A stretch of 25,623 bases of DNA from a virus: positions 1-25,623 of IMG/VR virus record IMGVR_UViG_3300021142_000164; one strand, 5' to 3'. Position numbers and translations under genes: made by a program. A model generated the notes under the pieces. The model saw only the letters and a program-made list of their open reading frames with translations. It was not told the origin of the DNA and ran no database searches. Shown piece after piece: positions 3,061-16,115 of the stretch (the first letter of the stretch is position 1; every line of letters begins with the position of its first letter).

Positions 3061-4020
3061 TTAGGCGGCTTCTGCCATTTCAATGGCAGTTTCAAGGGCA
3101 TGGGTTTTCAGGTTCCGATTAGAACCATACCATGCCGATTGCAGACGGTTTTCCTGACTCCGACCGGCAAGATGATCGGTGTAATACGTAGTGGCATTAA
3201 ATAGCTGCCAAAAGGTACCACGAGCATATTCTGCACCAGGCTGAGTATCGACAATTTCAAGAACTGTCTTAGCGGGCTTGGACAATTCCTTCTTGGAATC
3301 CGTCTTAGATGTAGCAACCGGGAACACACGCTTGAAGTATTCAACCATGTTCTCGTTTGTGTAACGCTTTTGACCCAAGAATTGAGCCATTTCCTTATAC
3401 TTGGCAAGCTTGTCGGCGGCAACACCGAGCATTAGCTTGACAGAGTCGCCGTTGAATTCACGACGATGCGAAAACTTGACCATCCGCTCAACCTTGGTAT
3501 TCAAGGAAAGTGTCAGGGTATTGTTACACACCACACGGATCGGGGTAAACCGAACGTCGGTAGAAAAGCCATATTTGTGGAAATTCGAGAAGTGAAGATA
3601 CGATTCCACTTCATCACCCTTGAAAAGGGAAAAGCCGTCCTTGACCTTTGCAAGCGCCCAGACAATTTGGCCATCCTTCAGCGACCCTGCCGTGTGCATT
3701 TCCATGTCACCTTCGGCAATAAAGTCGTTGAAGAATTCAAATGCTTCCGAATTTTGAACGGGATTCCAGTCATCAGAAACAATGTCAAGAATTGTATTAT
3801 CAGAGGTGCGTACCAGAGCAGACCGACCGACGGAAACGTCCTTACCGCCGACGTTAGCAAAGGCCGGGATCTTCTCGACCTTCCAATTTAGGTCTGCTGC
3901 CTCGAGCATCTGCTCGGGGGTCAGGTCATCGGGGACGCAAGTGCCCAGACCATGCCAAGGTGTAGGTCCAGCATAAGCCATAGAGGCCTTGCCATTCTTA
4001 ATTTCAAGTTCGTGTGCCAT
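3061..4020 (-). CDS. DUF932 family phage/plasmid-like protein
   Basis: A 319-residue protein with the hallmark N-terminus of the DUF932 / TIGR03299 phage- and plasmid-associated family: MAYAGPTPWHGLG (residues 14-26), then D.T..QMLEAA.L.W.V, a central RFTPIRVVCNNTL element (about 157-169) and a conserved C-terminal YARGTFWQLFNATTYYTDH segment. The length is typical. The biochemical function is unknown; members are common in large phages and plasmids, often with replication or recombination genes. The start ATG has GAAGGG about 5 nt upstream. A promoter with perfect 17-bp spacing is at 4056-4084. It is followed by the 77-residue protein in the same unit. Base composition is somewhat more GC-rich than in the structural genes. 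Confidence 0.9.
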   Translation of the reverse strand: MAHELEIKNGKASMAYAGPTPWHGLGTCVPDDLTPEQMLEAADLNWKVEKIPAFANVGGKDVSVGRSALVRTSDNTILDIVSDDWNPVQNSEAFEFFNDFIAEGDMEMHTAGSLKDGQIVWALAKVKDGFSLFKGDEVESYLHFSNFHKYGFSTDVRFTPIRVVCNNTLTLSLNTKVERMVKFSHRREFNGDSVKLMLGVAADKLAKYKEMAQFLGQKRYTNENMVEYFKRVFPVATSKTDSKKELSKPAKTVLEIVDTQPGAEYARGTFWQLFNATTYYTDHLAGRSQENRLQSAWYGSNRNLKTHALETAIEMAEAA

Positions 4021-4306: not shown

Positions 4307-4543
4307 CTATTTTTTGGCCAGCCATTCGGGCATAGTGATCCGGGCCCGTCGGACGGCGATCGGCCCGAGAGGGCGACCTTTCCGATCCTTACCGCCAGGT
4401 ACCAGGTACTCGTCGGAGATATACTCCACCGAGCAGAGGCTTTTGGGGCGATATTCACCGCCCAGGATACACCACCCCTTGGCAGTTTCATTGCCTGGGA
4501 CAAGGAGGGTCTCGAAGGTAACCAATTGTCGCTTCATCATCAT
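4307..4543 (-). CDS. Unknown small basic protein, 78 aa
   Basis: Begins with three Met codons (MMMKRQLVTFETLL) and continues with a G/P/R-rich body (GGEYRPKSLCSVEY, GGKDRKGRPLGPIAVRR) ending MPEWLAKK. No domain is recognised. The first six residues, MMMKRQ, are identical to those of the plus-strand protein at 5008-5163, because the promoter and start region are an inverted duplicate. The -10 box (4550-4555) lies only 6 bp before the ATG, so the message would be nearly leaderless. The GC-rich codon use differs from that of the tail genes. An antisense frame over the same bases (4271-4600) was judged a shadow because it lacks promoter context. Confidence 0.65.
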   Translation of the reverse strand: MMMKRQLVTFETLLVPGNETAKGWCILGGEYRPKSLCSVEYISDEYLVPGGKDRKGRPLGPIAVRRARITMPEWLAKK

Positions 4544-4549
4544 ATATGC

Positions 4550-4578
4550 ATCTTATACCAATTAAAGAAAAAAGTCAA
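4550..4578 (-). promoter_or_regulatory. Promoter TTGACT-17-TAAGAT, leaderless type
   Basis: Minus strand TTGACT (4573-4578), 17-bp spacer, TAAGAT (4550-4555), then gcatat and ATG at 4543. The segment from about 4530 to 4579 is an almost perfect inverted copy of 4972-5023. Confidence 0.8.
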
Positions 4579-4587
4579 ACTAATCAT

Positions 4588-4963
4588 ATCAATACGTTAG
4601 TGCTAACCCATTGATTTTATTAAGAAAATATTTTCAACTTTTTTAAAAAAAATATTTCCCAATTATATCAACACGTTATGTGAGAAACGATGCTAGAGGT
4701 TTCTAGGCTGTATAAACCCACACTTAGCATGCTTAGTATCGTTAGAATTGGGCACTTCCGGCTAACGTATTGATTCTATTAGTATTCTCTGGCTTCGACC
4801 TATAGCCTAACGTATTGATATGATTGGAGAATTTTGAGAAATTCCCAGGAACGTCGACGAGGTCGAGGTGCTAACCTATTGATTCTATTAGAACGAAAAA
4901 AGGTTTAAAAAATTTACTTTTTTATTCCCATTCATATCAATACGTTAGTGCTAACCCATTGAT
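4588..4963. repeat. Cluster of 12-bp motif TAAC(G/C)(T/C)ATTGAT in both orientations
   Basis: Copies on the plus strand: 4604-4615, 4763-4774, 4808-4819, 4872-4883, 4952-4963. Inverted copies (ATCAA.ACGTTA): 4588-4599, 4667-4678, 4936-4947. Two pairs form identical 28-bp imperfect palindromes with a GTGC centre (4588-4615 and 4936-4963), placed just upstream of the -35 boxes of the two divergent promoters. No gene is seen in 4544-5007. Long A/T tracts (about 4615-4660 and 4892-4925) flank the cluster. This looks like multiple binding sites for one protein: an operator array, or origin iterons beside AT-rich unwinding DNA. Confidence 0.8.
4686..4743. other. Possible structured stem-loop in the control region
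   Basis: Nested inverted repeats: AACG (4686-4689) with CGTT (4740-4743), ATGCTA (4690-4695) with TAGCAT (4725-4730), and GGTTT (4698-4702) with AAACC (4714-4718). It lies in the middle of the gene-free repeat region. It could be an untranslated RNA element or an origin hairpin; only the complementarity is visible. Confidence 0.4.
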
Positions 4964-4972
4964 TTCCTTGGT

Positions 4973-5001
4973 TTGACTTTTTTCTTTAATTGGTATAAGA
5001 T
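4973..5001 (+). promoter_or_regulatory. Promoter TTGACT-17-TAAGAT, leaderless type
   Basis: TTGACT (4973-4978), 17-bp spacer, TAAGAT (4996-5001), then gcatat and ATG at 5008. It is the mirror image of the promoter at 4550-4578. Confidence 0.8.
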
Positions 5002-5007
5002 GCATAT

Positions 5008-5163
5008 ATGATGATGAAGCGACAAATGTTTGACCTGGTTTTCTTTACCTGCCGCGATGCCCTCCTGGGCGCCGCCCTCTCGGCCGCGGTGTTCTGCGCC
5101 GCTTTGCGCTACGGTGGGGCTAACGCCCTGCCCATCTTCTTCGAACTTTTGTTTAAAAACTGA
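5008..5163 (+). CDS. Small membrane protein, 51 aa
   Basis: From ATG 5008 the ORF reads MMMKRQMFDLVFF, then a hydrophobic Ala-rich helix (about residues 17-32, DALLGAALSAAVFCAALR), and a short tail ending PIFFELLFKN. A single transmembrane segment is likely. An in-frame ATG at 5026 gives a 45-residue version. The first six residues are shared with the minus-strand protein at 4307-4543, through the duplicated promoter/start block. GC-rich codons (gcc, ctg, ggc) contrast with the AT-rich tail genes. The -10 box is 6 bp before the first ATG, so the start is at or next to the predicted transcript 5' end. No family is recognised. A small early phage membrane protein is a reasonable but unproven reading. 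Confidence 0.6.
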   Translation: MMMKRQMFDLVFFTCRDALLGAALSAAVFCAALRYGGANALPIFFELLFKN

Positions 5164-5203: not shown

Positions 5204-5232
5204 GCATATATGATGGTTTGAAAGGGTTTCTA

Positions 5233-6105
5233 ATGCCTCGTGGCGTTCCTAAGTCTGGTTTTCGTAATACCAAGAATAACATTGCTCGGATGATGACCGT
5301 GCGATCTGACGTTCCGGCCGAACCGCTGGTCGTCGAGTCTGACTCTGATATTGAGGTCAAGCTGCAAGAACGGTTTGACGTCCTTTCAATGATGACGGAT
5401 GCCGCCATCGCCGGTGACGTTCGTGCCCTGGTTGTGTCTGGTCCGGCTGGTCTAGGCAAGTCATTCACCGTCGAAAAGGCGCTCGAGCTGCATGATCCGT
5501 CTGAGGCTAATCATCGGATCGTGAAGGGTTACGTTCGGGCCCCTGGCCTGTTTAAACTGCTGTATCAGCACCGTCAGGCAGGCAAAGTGCTTGTGTTCGA
5601 TGATGCTGACGCCATTTGGTTCGATGACGTCTCGATTAATCTGCTCAAGGCCGTGTGTGACAGCAACGACAAACGTATCGTATCATACATCACCGAAGGT
5701 GCTTTGGTCGACGAAGAGTCTGCCGAACTTCTGCCCAAGAGCTTTCAGTTCGACGGCACGATCATTTTCATCACGAACCACGATTTCGATGCAATGATCG
5801 ACCGCGGTGACAAAGGTGCGCCTCATATGCAGGCCATGATGTCTCGCGCGCATTATATCGACCTTGCCATGAAAACCACACGCGATTACCTGATCCGTAT
5901 TCGTCAAGTCGTGCGCGATGGTCTCCTCGAGAATATCGGTCTGGATAAAACTGGTCAGTCTGATGTTCTTGCATACGTCGAGGATAATCACAACAAATTG
6001 CGTGAACTTTCTCTCCGTATGGTTCTTAAAATTGGTAAGATCCGTAAGACAAATGCGACCAATTGGCGTAAAATTGTCAAGATCACCTGCACGAAGGGGG
6101 TTTAA
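5233..6105 (+). CDS. AAA family ATPase
   Basis: A 290-residue ATPase. The basic N-terminus MPRGVPKSGFR is followed by Walker A GPAGLGKS (residues 70-77), Walker B VLVFDDAD (119-126) and a sensor-1-like strand IIFITN (177-182). The size fits a single AAA domain. The partner or substrate is not evident; similar stand-alone AAA ATPases occur in large phages and may act in DNA metabolism or remodelling. The start is the ATG at 5233, with GAAAGGG (5220-5226) six bases upstream, rather than the in-frame TTG at 5218. A promoter is at 5175-5203. GC-rich codon usage marks it as part of a block unlike the surrounding AT-rich phage genes. The 65-residue gene at 6107 follows after one base. Confidence 0.9.
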   Translation: MPRGVPKSGFRNTKNNIARMMTVRSDVPAEPLVVESDSDIEVKLQERFDVLSMMTDAAIAGDVRALVVSGPAGLGKSFTVEKALELHDPSEANHRIVKGYVRAPGLFKLLYQHRQAGKVLVFDDADAIWFDDVSINLLKAVCDSNDKRIVSYITEGALVDEESAELLPKSFQFDGTIIFITNHDFDAMIDRGDKGAPHMQAMMSRAHYIDLAMKTTRDYLIRIRQVVRDGLLENIGLDKTGQSDVLAYVEDNHNKLRELSLRMVLKIGKIRKTNATNWRKIVKITCTKGV

Positions 6106-6389: not shown

Positions 6390-6500
6390 ATGTTTGTTTC
6401 CAAGTATGGGGAAAAGTCAACGAAGGTGTTTTTGATCATAGAACAAGTCATATTTCAATTTGAAATATTTGATCAAGTTAGGGATGATCTGAGATGGTGA
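6390..6500 (+). CDS. Short repeat-family ORF ending DDLRW, possibly frameshifted remnant
   Basis: A 36-residue frame MFVSKYGEKSTKVF...EQV...FDQVRDDLRW. TGAGG lies close before the ATG. The C-terminal half has the family signature (E-Q-V, D-Q-V-R, DDLRW) and the stop overlaps the start of the next member (6494) through ATGGTGA. A second frame, 6323-6463, starting MMAFTITTFL, contains the related-looking FQVWGKVNEGVF and breaks off where the first frame picks up the family pattern. A one-base change near 6440 would join them into a 58-residue protein. This may therefore be a decayed or frameshifted copy. The function is unknown. Confidence 0.45.
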   Translation: MFVSKYGEKSTKVFLIIEQVIFQFEIFDQVRDDLRW

Positions 6501-6694
6501 AGAATAAGATTGGTAAAATCAGGTATCAGGTCTGGGATCAGGTCTATATTCAGGTCGGCGATCAGGTCTGGAGTCGGGCGGGGTATGGCGGGAGTCGGGT
6601 CAGATATCAGGTCAGTGATCAGGTCTGGAATCAGGTCAGTGATCAGGTCTGGGATCAAATATTTGATCAGGTCGAGGATGATCTAAAATGGTGA
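6494..6694 (+). CDS. x-Q-V-x tetrapeptide-repeat small protein ending DDLKW
   Basis: A 66-residue protein with N-terminus MVKNKIGKIRYQVWDQV, a body of 12-bp-encoded units [D/Y/N/S]-Q-V-[W/S/Y], a short glycine/arginine interruption (WSRAGYGGSRVR) and the end VEDDLKW. The start overlaps the last codons of the upstream ORF (ATGGTGA). The next micro-ORF (6688) starts in the same way inside its last codons. The shared ends and in-frame repeats support translation. No domain is recognised. From memory, similar tetrapeptide tracts (SQLW/DQVW type) occur inside DUF6745 proteins; the neighbour at 6770 is DUF6745-like. Confidence 0.65.
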   Translation: MVKNKIGKIRYQVWDQVYIQVGDQVWSRAGYGGSRVRYQVSDQVWNQVSDQVWDQIFDQVEDDLKW

Positions 6695-6723
6695 AGAAAA
6701 CCATTGACAATATCAGCAACTAA
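6688..6723 (+). CDS. 11-codon vestigial family member MVKKTIDNISN
   Basis: ATG overlaps the preceding stop through ATGGTGA and encodes only MVKKTIDNISN. This matches the family N-terminus MVK..ID, then stops. The repeat body and DLRW end are missing, so it is either a remnant or a re-initiation leader. The promoter of the DUF6745-like gene (TTGACA at 6704) lies inside it. Confidence 0.35.
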   Translation: MVKKTIDNISN

Positions 6724-6732
6724 TGGTATTAT
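6704..6732 (+). promoter_or_regulatory. Sigma70-type promoter for DUF6745-like gene
   Basis: TTGACA (6704-6709), 17-bp spacer, TATTAT (6727-6732), 37 bp before the ATG at 6770. Near-consensus. Confidence 0.85.
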
Positions 6733-6769
6733 ATCTTTATTGAAACACACTGTGAAAGGAACTTAAAAT

Positions 6770-7627
6770 ATGATTACGGAACTTACCAAGGAACAGCAGG
6801 ATCAGATGCCGATCTACCGTGACAAGTGGATTGACATTGGTCTCTCTACTGAGACGATTGATCGTGATGCTGCTGTTGCAGCATTGAATATGGCTTATCA
6901 GGCTGCAGATCTTGCTCCTCCCAAGACGGTTTTGTTTGCGTCTGGTCCCAAGGATATGGTTCGGGTATTTCGTGAGACTTTTCCCAACGCTACTTGGGAC
7001 GAATTCAATTCCAATATCATCTTCGGTGGTCACGAAGCTGACTGGGCTTCTTATATTGACTACTTCCAGGAAGTTGTTGGTCTTGACCTTAACAAGGCCA
7101 ATGGATTGATTGAACTTGCCAAGAGTTCGGGTTGGGTCTGGGTTTCACAGGATCTTGCCATTATTATGGATCGTCCTTCTCATATTCGTATGGATGAGAA
7201 CAATGTTCTTCATGCAGAGGATCGTCCAAGTGTTCTCTATCGTGATGGCTTTGCCGTTTATAGTTGGCATGGTCTTCGTGTTCCTCGTGAATGGATTATG
7301 GAAAAGGAAAAGCTCACTGCTCAGAAGGCCTTGAGTCAAGATAATATCGAGATGCGGCGTGCAGCATGTGAAATTGTTGGATGGAGCAAAATTCTTGAGG
7401 ATCTAAACTATTCTGTTGTTGAAAAGGACGAGGACGAACAGATCGGCACTCTCGTTGAGGTTGATTTGCCTGATGCCGGTAAGGAAAAGTTTTTGATGGT
7501 CAAGTGCGGGACTGGTCGTGATTTTGCAATCCCAGTACCTCCTGATATGAAGACTGCTTTAGAAGCCAATGCCTGGACTTTTGGTCTCAATCCGGAAGAT
7601 CTTCGTGAGCTCGAAGTTCGTACCTGA
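6770..7627 (+). CDS. DUF6745-like protein lacking internal repeats
   Basis: A 285-residue protein recognised by its family pattern: an N-terminal LTKEQQDQMPIYRDKW (residues 5-20) and IGLSTETIDRDAA, a DWASYIDYF element (91-99), GWVWV (121-125), then LHAEDRPSVLYRDGFAVY (147-164), WHGLRVP (166-172) and a closing FGLNPEDL. Many members, as I recall them, carry long SQLW/DQVW tetrapeptide tracts between the N-terminal helix region and the WASYIDYF element. Here that segment (about 60-90) is non-repetitive, while stand-alone repeat ORFs flank the gene on both sides. The biochemical function is unknown. It has its own promoter (6704-6732) and an AAGGAA ribosome site. Confidence 0.75.
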   Translation: MITELTKEQQDQMPIYRDKWIDIGLSTETIDRDAAVAALNMAYQAADLAPPKTVLFASGPKDMVRVFRETFPNATWDEFNSNIIFGGHEADWASYIDYFQEVVGLDLNKANGLIELAKSSGWVWVSQDLAIIMDRPSHIRMDENNVLHAEDRPSVLYRDGFAVYSWHGLRVPREWIMEKEKLTAQKALSQDNIEMRRAACEIVGWSKILEDLNYSVVEKDEDEQIGTLVEVDLPDAGKEKFLMVKCGTGRDFAIPVPPDMKTALEANAWTFGLNPEDLRELEVRT

Positions 7628-7790
7628 GACTGTAAAGGATCACATCTTTAAATCATGGGACTGTGGCCTCCTCATAAGTGATAGTGCCTATGAGGAGGTT
7701 ACTTCATTGAGAAATGATGTGATGATCAAAGTCTATTGGAATTTTAGTGGTGATCTTTTATGGGCAATGATGGATCAGTTGGAATTGTAA
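7569..7790 (+). CDS. Possible degenerate repeat-family ORF after DUF6745-like gene
   Basis: The open frame runs from an ATG inside the DUF6745-like gene. A more attractive start is TTG at 7707, eight bases after the strong Shine-Dalgarno GAGGAGG (7692-7698), giving 27 residues ending LLWAMMDQLEL. That end resembles the C-terminus of the ORF at 8190 (VMNKIWWDVTG, LLWEQI.IDLKW), so this may be a diverged family member without the DLRW end. The Shine-Dalgarno lies in one arm of a perfect 10-bp inverted repeat. Whether it is translated is uncertain. Confidence 0.35.
   Translation: MPGLLVSIRKIFVSSKFVPETVKDHIFKSWDCGLLISDSAYEEVTSLRNDVMIKVYWNFSGDLLWAMMDQLEL
7667..7698 (+). promoter_or_regulatory. 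Perfect hairpin burying a Shine-Dalgarno
   Basis: CCTCCTCATA (7667-7676) and TATGAGGAGG (7689-7698) are perfectly complementary around a 12-nt loop. The 3' arm holds the ribosome-binding sequence GAGGAGG. No U-tract follows, so it is not a classical terminator. A translational switch is plausible. Confidence 0.55.
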
Positions 7791-7987
7791 AGAGTGATAT
7801 TAACAAAGCCAAATGGCAAGTCCGGGATAAGCACTGGATTTATACGAATGAACTGATCATAAATCAGGTTTGGGATCAGGTCAGAAATCAGGTTTGGGAT
7901 CAGGTCAGAAATCAGGCCTATAATCAGGTCTGGTATCAGATCTTGGATCGGGGCTGGGATCAAATTGGAGATGATCTAAGATGGTGA
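7760..7987 (+). CDS. x-Q-V-x tetrapeptide-repeat small protein ending DDLRW
   Basis: A 75-residue protein. A non-repetitive head (MGNDGSVGIVKSDINKAKWQ) is followed by seven or so units of the type [N/D]-Q-[V/A]-[W/R/Y] and the end WDQIGDDLRW. The start lies inside the preceding frame (7569-7790), and its end overlaps the start of the next member by ATGGTGA. The body is encoded by recognisable 12-bp DNA repeats, aatcaggtttgg and variants. The head differs from the MVK..ID start of its relatives. No known domain. Confidence 0.65.
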   Translation: MGNDGSVGIVKSDINKAKWQVRDKHWIYTNELIINQVWDQVRNQVWDQVRNQAYNQVWYQILDRGWDQIGDDLRW

Positions 7988-8196
7988 AGAATAGTATTGA
8001 TAGCGTCAGGTATCAGGTCTGGGGTCCGGTCAGGTATCAGGTCTTGCATCAGGTCAGGGATCGGGTCTGGGGTCCGGTCAGGTATCAGGTCAGGGATCGC
8101 GTCTTGAATCAGGTCTTGCATCAGGTCAGGTATCAGGTCAGGGATCGCGTCTTGAATCAGGTTGAGGTTCAGATTAAAGATAATCTAAGATGGTGA
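7981..8196 (+). CDS. x-Q-V-x tetrapeptide-repeat small protein ending DNLRW
   Basis: A 71-residue member. It starts MVKNSIDSVRYQVW, continues with the most regular repeats of the cluster (units such as R-Y-Q-V, L-H-Q-V, R-D-R-V, L-N-Q-V), and ends VQIKDNLRW. Higher-order duplication is visible: the block VRYQVRDRVLNQVLHQ recurs in part as VRYQVRDRVLNQVE, showing recent in-frame expansion. Both ends are linked to neighbours by the ATGGTGA overlap. The pattern predicts either a regular helix/coil or a solenoid-like stack of aromatic and Val positions every four residues; which one cannot be told from sequence alone. Confidence 0.65.
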   Translation: MVKNSIDSVRYQVWGPVRYQVLHQVRDRVWGPVRYQVRDRVLNQVLHQVRYQVRDRVLNQVEVQIKDNLRW

Positions 8197-8360
8197 AAGA
8201 TAAGATTGATCGCACAATACTTCAAATTAATAATACATTTCATGATGAGTTCTCTGATTCCGTTATGAATAAAATTTGGTGGGATGTTACTGGACAAGAC
8301 GTATATCAAAATTCGAAATATCTTTTATGGGAGCAAATTAGAATTGATCTAAAATGGTAG
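8190..8360 (+). CDS. Small family member, non-repetitive, ending DLKW
   Basis: A 56-residue protein with the family N-terminus MVKDKIDRTILQI and C-terminus LLWEQIRIDLKW but almost no Q-V repeats between (it holds SVMNKIWWDVTGQDVYQ). Its ATG overlaps the stop of the upstream member, and its own end (ATGGTAG) overlaps the next start. Because both conserved ends survive without the repeat tract, it shows that the ends define the family and that the repeats are an expandable insert. Confidence 0.6.
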   Translation: MVKDKIDRTILQINNTFHDEFSDSVMNKIWWDVTGQDVYQNSKYLLWEQIRIDLKW

Positions 8361-8428
8361 AAAAAAACTATACTCGTCAAATTTGGAATCCTATTTGGAG
8401 TCAAGTTATAGAAGATTTGAGATGGTAA
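8354..8428 (+). CDS. 24-residue minimal family member ending DLRW
   Basis: The full frame is MVEKNYTRQIW followed by NPIWSQVIEDLRW. It is the shortest complete member: start MV[E/K], W-rich centre, one S-Q-V unit and terminal DLRW. The start overlaps the upstream stop within ATGGTAG. The chain ends here; the following ATG (8422) gives only five codons. The tmRNA promoter begins eight bases later. Confidence 0.5.
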   Translation: MVEKNYTRQIWNPIWSQVIEDLRW

Positions 8429-8435
8429 TTTTTTG

Positions 8436-8466
8436 TTGACAATACCATTTAAATGGTGTATAAATA
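8436..8466 (+). promoter_or_regulatory. Strong promoter for tmRNA/gp32, sigma70 plus late-type box
   Basis: TTGACA (8436-8441), 17-bp spacer, TATAAA (8459-8464). The -10 region extends to TATAAATA (8459-8466), the exact T4 late promoter octamer, so the site could serve host sigma70 early and the phage late sigma later. The expected start near 8471 fits the beginning of the tmRNA acceptor piece. Confidence 0.85.
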
Positions 8467-8478
8467 TAAATGTTGCTG

Positions 8479-8492
8479 TTGATTGCAATCAA
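8479..8492. repeat. Perfect 14-bp palindrome TTGATTGCAATCAA
   Basis: Lies 13-14 bp after the -10 box, at the start of the tmRNA acceptor transcript. It could be an operator or a small hairpin at the acceptor 5' end. Confidence 0.5.
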
Positions 8493-8673
8493 ATAGACTT
8501 GCTGAGACGGGAGTGCGACTCTCCCCACCTCCACCATAAGCACACGGTATGTCAGAACACTGGATGCAAGTCGTGTGTTTATGATGGGGGTGACTAGGTT
8601 CGATCAGCTGTGGTAAGGGTTGAGGTAGGCAATGAGTAAGACACGACTCACAATCAGTTCAAAAACTATAAAT

Positions 8674-8718
8674 GCCAACGATAATGTTGCATTTGAGGGA
8701 ACTGCCCTAGCGGCATAA
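8674..8718 (+). other. tmRNA tag reading frame ANDNVAFEGTALAA
   Basis: From GCC at 8674 the frame encodes ANDNVAFEGTALAA and stops at TAA 8716-8718. The ANDN start and terminal A-L-A-A are typical of proteobacterial degradation tags read by ClpXP. The middle, VAFEGT, differs from the FAEEFAV of common alphaproteobacterial tags. Confidence 0.9.
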
Positions 8719-8762
8719 CCTCATTGGGTATGGGTTCCACCTAGAAACAGAACGGGCCCAAT

Positions 8763-8787
8763 ATACTAACATACTAAAATATACTAA
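8763..8787 (+). promoter_or_regulatory. Three ATACTAA repeats in the gp32 leader
   Basis: ATACTAA occurs at 8763, 8771 and 8781 in an unstructured A/U-rich leader just before GAGG and the gp32 ATG. In T4, gp32 represses its own translation by cooperative binding to an unstructured A/U-rich leader beside a pseudoknot. This repeat is a candidate equivalent; that is inference. Confidence 0.45.
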
Positions 8788-8804
8788 TATATACGAGGTT
8801 ACAT

Positions 8805-9716
8805 ATGAATTCTTTTTCTGCACTAAAATCTTCTTCTAAGAGTTCCTTGGAGAAGTTGACACAAGAACTTTCAAAGCTAAATTCTGGTACTGAATCATCT
8901 AAGGATACTCGCTTCTGGTATCCCAATGTTGATAAGGCAGGTAATGGATTTGCTATGATCCGATTCCTACCTCCTTCTGCTAATGAAGATGTTCCATTCA
9001 TTCGTATGTTTGAACATGCTTTCAAAGGCCCAACTGGACTTTGGTATTTTGAAAATTCTCTAACTACTATCGGCAAGAATGATCCTGTCGGTGAATTGAA
9101 TTCCGTTCTTTGGAATCAATCATCTGATGAAAATTCACCTGGTCGTAAGCAGGCACGAGAACAAAAGCGTAAGCTAAGTTATATCTCAAACATTTATGTT
9201 ATCCAAGACTCTGCCAATCCAGAGAATAACGGAAAGGTTTTTCTCTTTAAGTATGGCAAGAAAATCTTTGATAAGCTAAATGAGGTCATGAATCCTCAGT
9301 TTGAAGATGAAAAGCCAATGAATCCTTTTGACTTCTGGGCTGGTGCTACATTCAAGCTCAAGATTCGGAATGTTGAAGGGTATCGCAATTATGATAAGTC
9401 AGAATTTGCAACACCTGGCCCTCTATTTGATGATGACGATGCTATGGAGAAGGTTTGGAATCAGCAACATTCTCTGCAAGCATTCCTTGACCCTAGCAAC
9501 TTCAAGAGTTATGAAGAACTCAAGAAGAAGCTTGATAAGGTTTTGGGACTTGATGATGCATCTAAGCTTACAAAGGCTCGGACAAAGACACCTGAGCCTG
9601 AGGATGATGAACTACCATGGACACCACCTAAGGTTGAACGTGCGGCAGTTCAGTCTTCTACGTCAGATGATGAAGATGATGACTTAGAATTCTTCAAACG
9701 TCTTTCAAAGGACTAA
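8805..9716 (+). CDS. gp32: gp32-like single-stranded DNA-binding protein
   Basis: A 303-residue homologue of T4 gp32, which coats ssDNA in replication, recombination and repair. A basic/Ser-rich N-terminus (cooperativity region) is followed by RFWYPNVDKAGNGFAMIRFL (about 37-56), FIRMFEHAFKGPTGLWYFEN (about 66-85) and the core F.FGKKIFDKL / PFDFWAGATFKLKI elements, ending in an acidic tail (DDEDDDLEFF) used in T4 for partner contacts. The T4 zinc ligands are largely missing: a His is kept, but the three Cys are absent, as in other zinc-less marine homologues. GAGG precedes the ATG. It shares the transcript start region with the tmRNA and is closed by the terminator at 9722-9747. Confidence 0.95.
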   Translation: MNSFSALKSSSKSSLEKLTQELSKLNSGTESSKDTRFWYPNVDKAGNGFAMIRFLPPSANEDVPFIRMFEHAFKGPTGLWYFENSLTTIGKNDPVGELNSVLWNQSSDENSPGRKQAREQKRKLSYISNIYVIQDSANPENNGKVFLFKYGKKIFDKLNEVMNPQFEDEKPMNPFDFWAGATFKLKIRNVEGYRNYDKSEFATPGPLFDDDDAMEKVWNQQHSLQAFLDPSNFKSYEELKKKLDKVLGLDDASKLTKARTKTPEPEDDELPWTPPKVERAAVQSSTSDDEDDDLEFFKRLSKD

Positions 9717-15506: not shown

Positions 15507-16115
15507 TTATCCTACCATTTCCTGTGATTCTTTCCAGACAGTTGTATTTGATGCTTTCTTGAAACGAGCAGAAGGAAGCATAAGTGCTGCATCCCACATT
15601 CTAGGTTGAATATTCAAGAAATTACTTCTTACATGATCATGTAGATACATTTTAAAACATGGTTTAAAATATTTAAATTTTGAAGCATTATTTAAAATCT
15701 CATATGATAGTTTCAATTTTGTATCGGCATTAAATTTTGTATCTTGTGAAATGGTGTAAAGTCTATCCATTAGTTTTGCTCTAAGAATTGGTGGAAGATA
15801 ATGGAGATTGATACCTTGAAAGCCACCATGGGTAAAACCTACCAAGAAAATAAGCGGGAATGTATCATAATACGGAAGTGTATCTTTATGCTTGGGATCA
15901 TAAAAATACATATACATTTTTCCAATATCGTTCATTGTTATCTTTGAATATAGATTTTCCTTATCATTCATCATCCGATTCTTGTTTACACTCGAAACGG
16001 TTGCTGCTGCATTTCTAAACCATGATCTTGTATCACGTTGACGAACATCGTCGGTGATACCTTCTGCACGGCCTTTCCGTGCTAATTGTGTGAAGATATA
16101 AGATTCGTTGGCCAA
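15507..16115 (-). CDS. Conserved T4-like phage protein of unknown role, 202 aa
   Basis: The recognisable part is MYMYFYDPKHKDTLPYYDTF, then PLIFLV, and GGFQGINLHYLPPILRAKLM. From memory, this arrangement (Y-F-Y-D-P-K...L-P-Y-Y-D-x-F-P...G-x-N-L-H-Y-L-P-P) is found in a widespread protein of marine T4-like phages near gene 4 and baseplate genes. Its function is not established to my knowledge; a virion-assembly or head/neck role is suggested only by the operon. It starts 36 bp after the gp4 stop and ends one base before the tube-like gene. A near-late box AATAAATA (minus strand, about 16141-16148) lies just upstream. Confidence 0.7.
   Translation of the reverse strand: MANESYIFTQLARKGRAEGITDDVRQRDTRSWFRNAAATVSSVNKNRMMNDKENLYSKITMNDIGKMYMYFYDPKHKDTLPYYDTFPLIFLVGFTHGGFQGINLHYLPPILRAKLMDRLYTISQDTKFNADTKLKLSYEILNNASKFKYFKPCFKMYLHDHVRSNFLNIQPRMWDAALMLPSARFKKASNTTVWKESQEMVG

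Follow-up and report, generated by a model that had tools for sequence, protein, structure and literature searches.

The viral contig IMGVR_UViG_3300021142_000164, analysed over its whole length of 25,623 nucleotides (the window), is part of a T4-like phage genome, with gp32 at 8805-9716 (profile match). It carries two plus-strand trains of overlapping micro-open reading frames (micro-ORFs), train A at 6390-6723 and train B at 7707-8428, which flank a plus-strand gene at 6770-7627 encoding a 285-aa protein with the uncharacterised domain DUF6745 (PF20530; 121.9 bits at a cut-off of 27, E 2.7e-35). A third train runs on the minus strand off the left edge of the window, behind a 116-aa gene at 405-755 that we call the companion, and its members lie at 355-173 and 179-1. 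We propose, with a probability of roughly 0.6, that the micro-proteins, with their tetrapeptide repeats of the V-x-x-Q type (xQV), are the trans-encoded and recombining repeat part of a DUF6745 system and that they work together with DUF6745 and the companion.

Association of the trains with DUF6745 and its companion

The association was measured with an independent query made from DUF6745 only, at 80 viral and 80 bacterial loci, and trains were counted within 8 kb. Train ORFs were present at 50 of the 80 viral DUF6745 loci (33 of 42 clusters after dereplication at 90% identity); 231 of these 249 ORFs were on the DUF6745 strand, and in 30 of the 50 loci the nearest one was at most 72 nt away from DUF6745. 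In contrast, only 4 of 80 control loci selected by gp32 had trains, and DUF6745 was present in 3 of these; 73 loci had neither, so that a train was seen in 1 of the 74 control loci without DUF6745 (Fisher p ~1e-18). Among the bacterial loci a train was found only in L229, a phage-like contig, the match in L255 being a single ORF that is not train-like. When 13 DUF6745-bearing bacterial genomes were searched, xQV matches were confined to the contigs of the DUF6745 locus, except for one Q-M-Q simple repeat, and the only train was again on the phage-type contig of L229.

Other phage and bacterial DUF6745 proteins hold tetrapeptide tracts (DQVR, SSLW, DQLG, ANIG and AATY-type) at a single site, after the N-terminal part and before the HExxW region. 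The DUF6745 of the window aligns without a repeat insert, the 99% identical copy in a sister contig (L007) has 0 tetrapeptides, and the linker in L149 is 33 aa long. None of the DUF6745 proteins of train-bearing phages carries internal tetrapeptide repeats; in the sample examined the repeats are either inside DUF6745 or in separate trains, and never in both. The stretch that would hold the repeats measures 26-62 aa in the viral DUF6745 proteins accompanied by trains, compared with 64-214 aa in intact bacterial ones. In 83 complete rows, 36 of the 44 short-linker proteins go with trains, and the only long-linker protein that has a train (L101) has a linker without tetrapeptides. In a tree built from the C-terminal domain, proteins with split repeats and a train are dispersed; the starred branches require at least six changes of state, and as judged from this tree the split of the repeats from DUF6745 arose more than once.

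The companion, which matches phrog_27831 (function not known) and has no family match in Pfam or NCBIfam, follows the same distribution. Its profile was found at 75 of the 80 viral and 76 of the 80 bacterial DUF6745 loci, usually adjoining, and at 5 of the 80 gp32-selected control loci. In the window it is encoded on the minus strand (405-755), 6 kb from DUF6745 and on the opposite strand, and yet it heads a train of its own, lying directly upstream of the left train. This co-occurrence suggests that the unit consists of DUF6745, the companion and the repeats, the latter supplied in cis or in trans.

Selection on the micro-proteins and exchange of modules

To count stops independently of gene prediction, every CARGTN-N6-CARGT link was taken from the DNA alone, no ORF being required (2,149 links). 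At the first variable codon, x1, 4 stops were observed against 189-233 expected from base composition, and at the second, x2, 3 against 20-24, whereas in the shifted frames the numbers agreed with expectation (48 vs 52 and 348 vs 345). The ratio of nonsynonymous to synonymous differences (pN/pS) was 0.62 at the V position, 2.0 at x1 and 4.2 at x2, with low third-position variation; V is conserved and the x positions show an excess of amino-acid-changing differences. All 26 complete modules of the window's family (DLRW, after its C-terminus) in four contigs are open and have a length that is a multiple of three while the number and content of their repeats vary, which is far beyond chance. Selection on the trains at the protein level is thus strongly supported. 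An initial annotation of the window, made from its letters, had proposed such selection and had named randomly broken frames in close relatives as one observation that would speak against it; in-frame stops are depleted about 50-fold, and the frames of the relatives are intact.

The sister contig, IMGVR_UViG_3300032668_001453 (loci L003 and L007), is ~99% identical to the window over long flanks, and despite this background its trains are built of different modules in a different order. The module at 7981-8196 is base-for-base identical to one in the left, minus-strand train of the sister contig (216/216 bp, at the other locus and on the other strand). As the exact shared block spans 7923-8196, one of the two breakpoints falls at the joint, and the other within the repeats of the gene before it. 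The left-train ORF at 1-179 shares 98.9% DNA identity, across 175 bp, with module 3 of the same left train in the sister contig. Since an identical module is found at another locus and all modules are in frame, we conclude that cassettes are exchanged between loci with their frames kept.

Trains as a wider class

Viral contigs were searched for five successive Q-V tetrads, and the figures given here rest on the matches listed, among which were simple repeats, DUF6745 proteins that carry the repeats internally and numerous small-ORF trains. Trains of xQV micro-ORFs occur in at least dozens of viral contigs, each with caps and an overlapping stop/start joint of its own: ATGGTGA in the window, AAAATGA in L113, CTATGA in L118 and overlaps of 14 to 17 nt in L095, L187 and L012. 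In 36 sampled loci the ATG is at or within the previous stop in 150 of 164 consecutive ORF pairs, 78 of which have the 4-nt ATGA overlap. Motifs resembling ribosome-binding sites precede 42 of 150 internal members and 21 of 80 first members, compared with 6% at random places. As about one quarter of internal and first members alike have such a motif, translational coupling along the trains, suggested in the initial annotation, is likely from the layout of the joints but not proven.

The architecture search across phages that the initial annotation had recommended was productive in viral contigs, whereas the micro-ORFs of the window had no match in annotated phages at the DNA or protein level. 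A repeat-rich module of the sister contig matched only the DUF6745 gene of prophage GD102-1 and, weakly, one Staphylococcus phage, and a train module of another phage matched only GD102-1. Searches of the micro-ORFs against Pfam, PHROGs, NCBIfam and PADLOC gave weak or sub-threshold matches only; as no Pfam match rose above the cut-off, the micro-ORFs hold no DUF6745 domain and their relation to DUF6745 is limited to its repeat segment. The DUF6745 of the window had no match to the PADLOC defence profiles, and elsewhere there were only weak, repeat-driven matches (E 0.002-0.006). We found no paper containing 'DUF6745' or the string DQVWDQV and nothing relevant on such arrays, and within the literature searched we could not find a previous description of the micro-gene train design. 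The earlier statement that no described system has this architecture holds to that extent; it had overlooked that the class is widespread, that it is linked to DUF6745 and the companion, and that the repeats elsewhere reside inside DUF6745.

Some occurrences are of a different kind. Contig L095 (102,602 bases) has an xQV train and contig L330 (99,511 bases) one xQV ORF, and no DUF6745 was found in either contig; these are possible exceptions to the partnership. Stretches resembling xQV are present in Nostoc plasmid NZ_CP026687.1 at 15697-15834, under a NACHT-domain gene, and in NC_016150.1 (Blattabacterium) at 147-284, an unannotated part of a 3-kb plasmid.

Proposed mechanism and alternatives

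The products of the micro-ORFs would be small, mostly helical proteins, in each of which a conserved N-cap and a conserved acidic C-cap enclose a run of V-x-x-Q tetrapeptides that varies in number and content. Translation would start at the first gene of a train, in train B at GAGGAGG, and continue by re-initiation at the stop/start overlaps. New in-frame modules would arise by recombination, both within the repeat tracts and at the joints, where one gene's end doubles as the start of its successor. We infer that the products bind DUF6745 or the companion in place of the built-in repeat, and that length and x residues set specificity. The most speculative step is the purpose, which may be an arms race with the defences of host or prophage, as has been reported for gp54 of mycobacteriophage Tweety, an unrelated tetrapeptide-repeat protein; for a counter-defence role of the micro-proteins this analogy is a lead only. 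Taken to its full extent, the proposal describes a widespread and previously undescribed class of translation-coupled micro-genes that are shuffled between loci as cassettes and whose combinatorial tetrapeptide-repeat proteins act in trans with DUF6745 and the 116-aa companion against host defences, the detached form having evolved several times from a repeat-containing DUF6745. This extended version is tentative, and we hold it slightly short of an even chance.

Several observations weigh against the proposed partnership. Thirty of the 80 viral DUF6745 loci have no train within 8 kb; some of these have one elsewhere in the contig, and others show none in the fragment available. Eight long or partial contigs have trains or lone xQV ORFs in which no DUF6745 was found, and in many DUF6745 proteins of actinobacteria the linker is long yet shows no clear tetrapeptides. 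As most contigs are fragments, such absences are weak. The alignment used as the DUF6745 query was built from train-bearing phages, and the viral sample therefore leans towards them. In phylogenetically independent pairs both traits change in the same way about three times and never in opposite ways, an underpowered comparison that is not significant alone (median p 0.25). The pN/pS values above 1 may be due in part to third-position codon bias. The structure models are of limited help. For a repeat-rich family module AlphaFold2 predicts one helix (mean predicted local distance difference test, pLDDT, 87; predicted template modelling score 0.35), which covers for a single member the structure prediction that had been recommended in the initial annotation, and a single helix modelled for a repetitive sequence is weak evidence. 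In the model of a fused phage DUF6745 (L034) the pLDDT exceeds 90 in the core and is low, ~45, in the repeats, which are modelled as helical. This model matched no fold in the PDB at E < 0.001 and, in BFVD at the same threshold, only proteins that are of the DUF6745 type or unnamed; DUF6745 and the companion had no match among PDB sequences.

It is conceivable that the micro-proteins are stand-alone peptides acting directly on varied host targets, for instance by inhibiting defence proteins or serving as decoys for them, DUF6745 being a mere neighbour. Contigs with trains and no DUF6745 would fit this, as would the diversification of the x positions around a kept V and the reported tuning of counter-defence by the tetrapeptide number of Tweety gp54 (PMC9262239). 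However, most loci have the trains adjacent to DUF6745 on the same strand, many loci without trains have the repeat built into DUF6745, and the split arose together with trains more than once, and we therefore regard independent peptides as unlikely. The overlapping joints in 150 of 164 pairs and the conserved caps could also point to stoichiometric subunits of one structure, such as a filament or a part of the virion, made in a polyprotein-like manner by coupled translation. Such subunits are hard to reconcile with a number and order of modules that differ between 99% identical genomes, and with trains that adjoin the genes for transfer-messenger RNA (tmRNA) and gp32, away from the baseplate block. 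We consider them improbable, and the term polyprotein-like in the initial annotation does not suit members that are separate proteins, occur singly or in trains and on either strand, and are swapped one by one.

The shuffling of cassettes between loci, and the resemblance of the repeat DNA to that within fused genes (for example CAGGTCTGGGATCAGGTC), are what would be expected of a silent store that supplies DUF6745 with copied repeats, in the style of antigenic variation. Yet where a phage bears trains, its DUF6745 lacks repeats that could vary, and the modules retain their own starts, stops and coupled joints, so that we disfavour a silent store and give it very little chance. Least credible is a non-functional product of slippage or an element acting as DNA, such as iterons or protein-binding sites, with open frames that are incidental. 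In its favour are the 12-bp tandem units with their conserved CAGGTC/CAAGTC core; against it, this core becomes codons for L, I, A or other residues in relatives. The ~50-fold depletion of stops in one frame, with the other frames as expected, refutes it unless the choice of loci created an artefact, and the intact frames of all 26 modules speak against it as well.

If the partnership of micro-proteins, DUF6745 and companion is correct, it provides a testable context for a domain found in phages and many bacteria, and implies that phages generate protein diversity by swapping overlapping micro-genes. Short overlapping ORFs of the kind that gene callers may discard could then form a real and diversified repertoire, and the trains would be connected to Tweety gp54, a phage protein with tetrapeptide repeats for which a phenotype has been reported.

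Relation to known systems

The closest likeness is to the repeat-containing DUF6745 proteins themselves, those of bacteria, gp38 of prophage prophiGD102-1 and UOF77368.1 of Caudoviricetes sp. MW202476. They share the tetrapeptide pattern (V/L/I, x, x, Q/S/N), placed at one fixed site before the HExxW region, and the companion as a neighbour in most loci. Unlike in the window, where separate micro-genes in trains accompany a DUF6745 without repeats, their repeats lie within one gene.

In type I restriction systems the TAEL spacer of HsdS consists of helical repeats of 12 bp (4 aa), and their number serves as a ruler. Unlike in the trains, these repeats are within HsdS, in two to three copies, and serve DNA recognition.

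Tweety gp54 (Che8 gp57, PMC gp51) has 12-bp/tetrapeptide repeats between conserved ends, with a copy number that varies among close relatives and with variation at first and second codon positions while the third is constant (PMC2884959). The number of its repeats reportedly modulates how well the Phrann gp29/gp30 system is escaped (PMC9262239). The variable-number core and the pattern of codon-position variation match those of the xQV links, whereas the core motif is AAxx instead of V-x-x-Q, and gp54 is a single gene with no DUF6745 domain and no train reported. Homology of gp54 to DUF6745 was rejected (no Pfam match; hhalign probability 0.1% against the DUF6745 alignment), so that gp54 is a lead to how the trains might work and not a member of the class. 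A variable in-gene array of short repeats is also cited for VR2 of bbp36 in Bordetella phage BMP-1, where it is non-essential and varies in copy number (PMC2884959); it differs in its 24-bp unit.

Members of the trains and other features of the window

The overlapping family recognised in the initial annotation is borne out by six open plus-strand members (6390-6500, 6494-6694, 7760-7987, 7981-8196, 8190-8360 and 8354-8428), ending in DDLRW, DDLKW, DDLRW, DNLRW, IDLKW and EDLRW, respectively. Member C-termini in the window have the form [DEN][DN]L[RK]W or similar, and adjoining members share ATGGTGA, ATGGTAG or ATGGTAA. The joints are indeed ATGGTGA at 6494, 6688, 7981 and 8190 and ATGGTAG at 8354, with an additional ATGGTGA at 179 on the minus strand, and the 12-bp units extend over 6525-6657 and 7863-8162 and also over 9-143. 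That list covered the plus-strand trains and missed the third train, whose members are 173-355 (MRQNVIK...KKDLRW; minus strand) and, across the joint at 179, 1-179 (MVRKSIDIAM...; minus strand), truncated by the end of the window.

Train A begins with 6390-6500 (MFVSKYG...RDDLRW), which has GAGGT ahead of its ATG and a 3-bp in-frame indel in the sister contig; it lacks the MV[K/E] N-terminus that had been ascribed to it. The next member, 6494-6694 (MVKNKIG...EDDLKW), has xQV repeats. Position 6688 had been counted as a further member and opens, at an ATGGTGA joint, only the 11-aa remnant MVKKTIDNISN (6688-6723), without a DLRW end, which reads into a promoter-like TTGACA-17-TATTAT (6704-6732, plus strand; 11 of 12 positions match the consensus) that precedes the DUF6745 gene.

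Upstream of train B, an RNA hairpin at 7663-7702 (plus strand; -26.4 kcal/mol, z -4.3) has GAGGAGG in its 3' arm, and a hairpin is predicted at the same site in the sister contig (-29.6 kcal/mol, z -5.2). GAGGAGG is likely the ribosome-binding site of train B, and its place in the hairpin would be in keeping with gated translation of the train. A member had been suspected to start at 7569; there is one here, and its start is more likely the TTG at 7707, behind GAGGAGG (7707-7790, MRNDVMIKVYW...DQLEL). In the sister contig (L007) this first member ends in DQLEW and overlaps an ATGGTAA start, which a single substitution has turned into ATTGTAA in the window, so that the final W and the next ATG are lost. 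The following ORF, 7760-7987 (ending IGDDLRW), consequently starts either at an ATG further upstream or at ATT 7784, the position of the sister-contig start. Then come 7981-8196 (MVKNSID...KDNLRW), the module shared with the other locus, 8190-8360 (MVKDKID...IDLKW), with few repeats, and 8354-8428 (MVEKNYTRQIWNPIWSQVIEDLRW), which is identical in the sister contig.

Between train B and gp32, at 8444-8809, lies a phage-encoded permuted (two-piece) tmRNA with the tag ANDNVAFEGTALAA; permuted tmRNA of aquatic phages has been reported previously (PMC9004378). The region between the left train and train A encodes a TIGR03299 phage/plasmid-like protein (3061-4020, minus strand) and an AAA-type ATPase, phrog_1250 (5218-6105, plus strand). 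Two similar stretches of ~100 bp (4516-4615 and 4936-5036; 87% identity, as seen by cross-matching with L003) lie where there are no obvious large genes.

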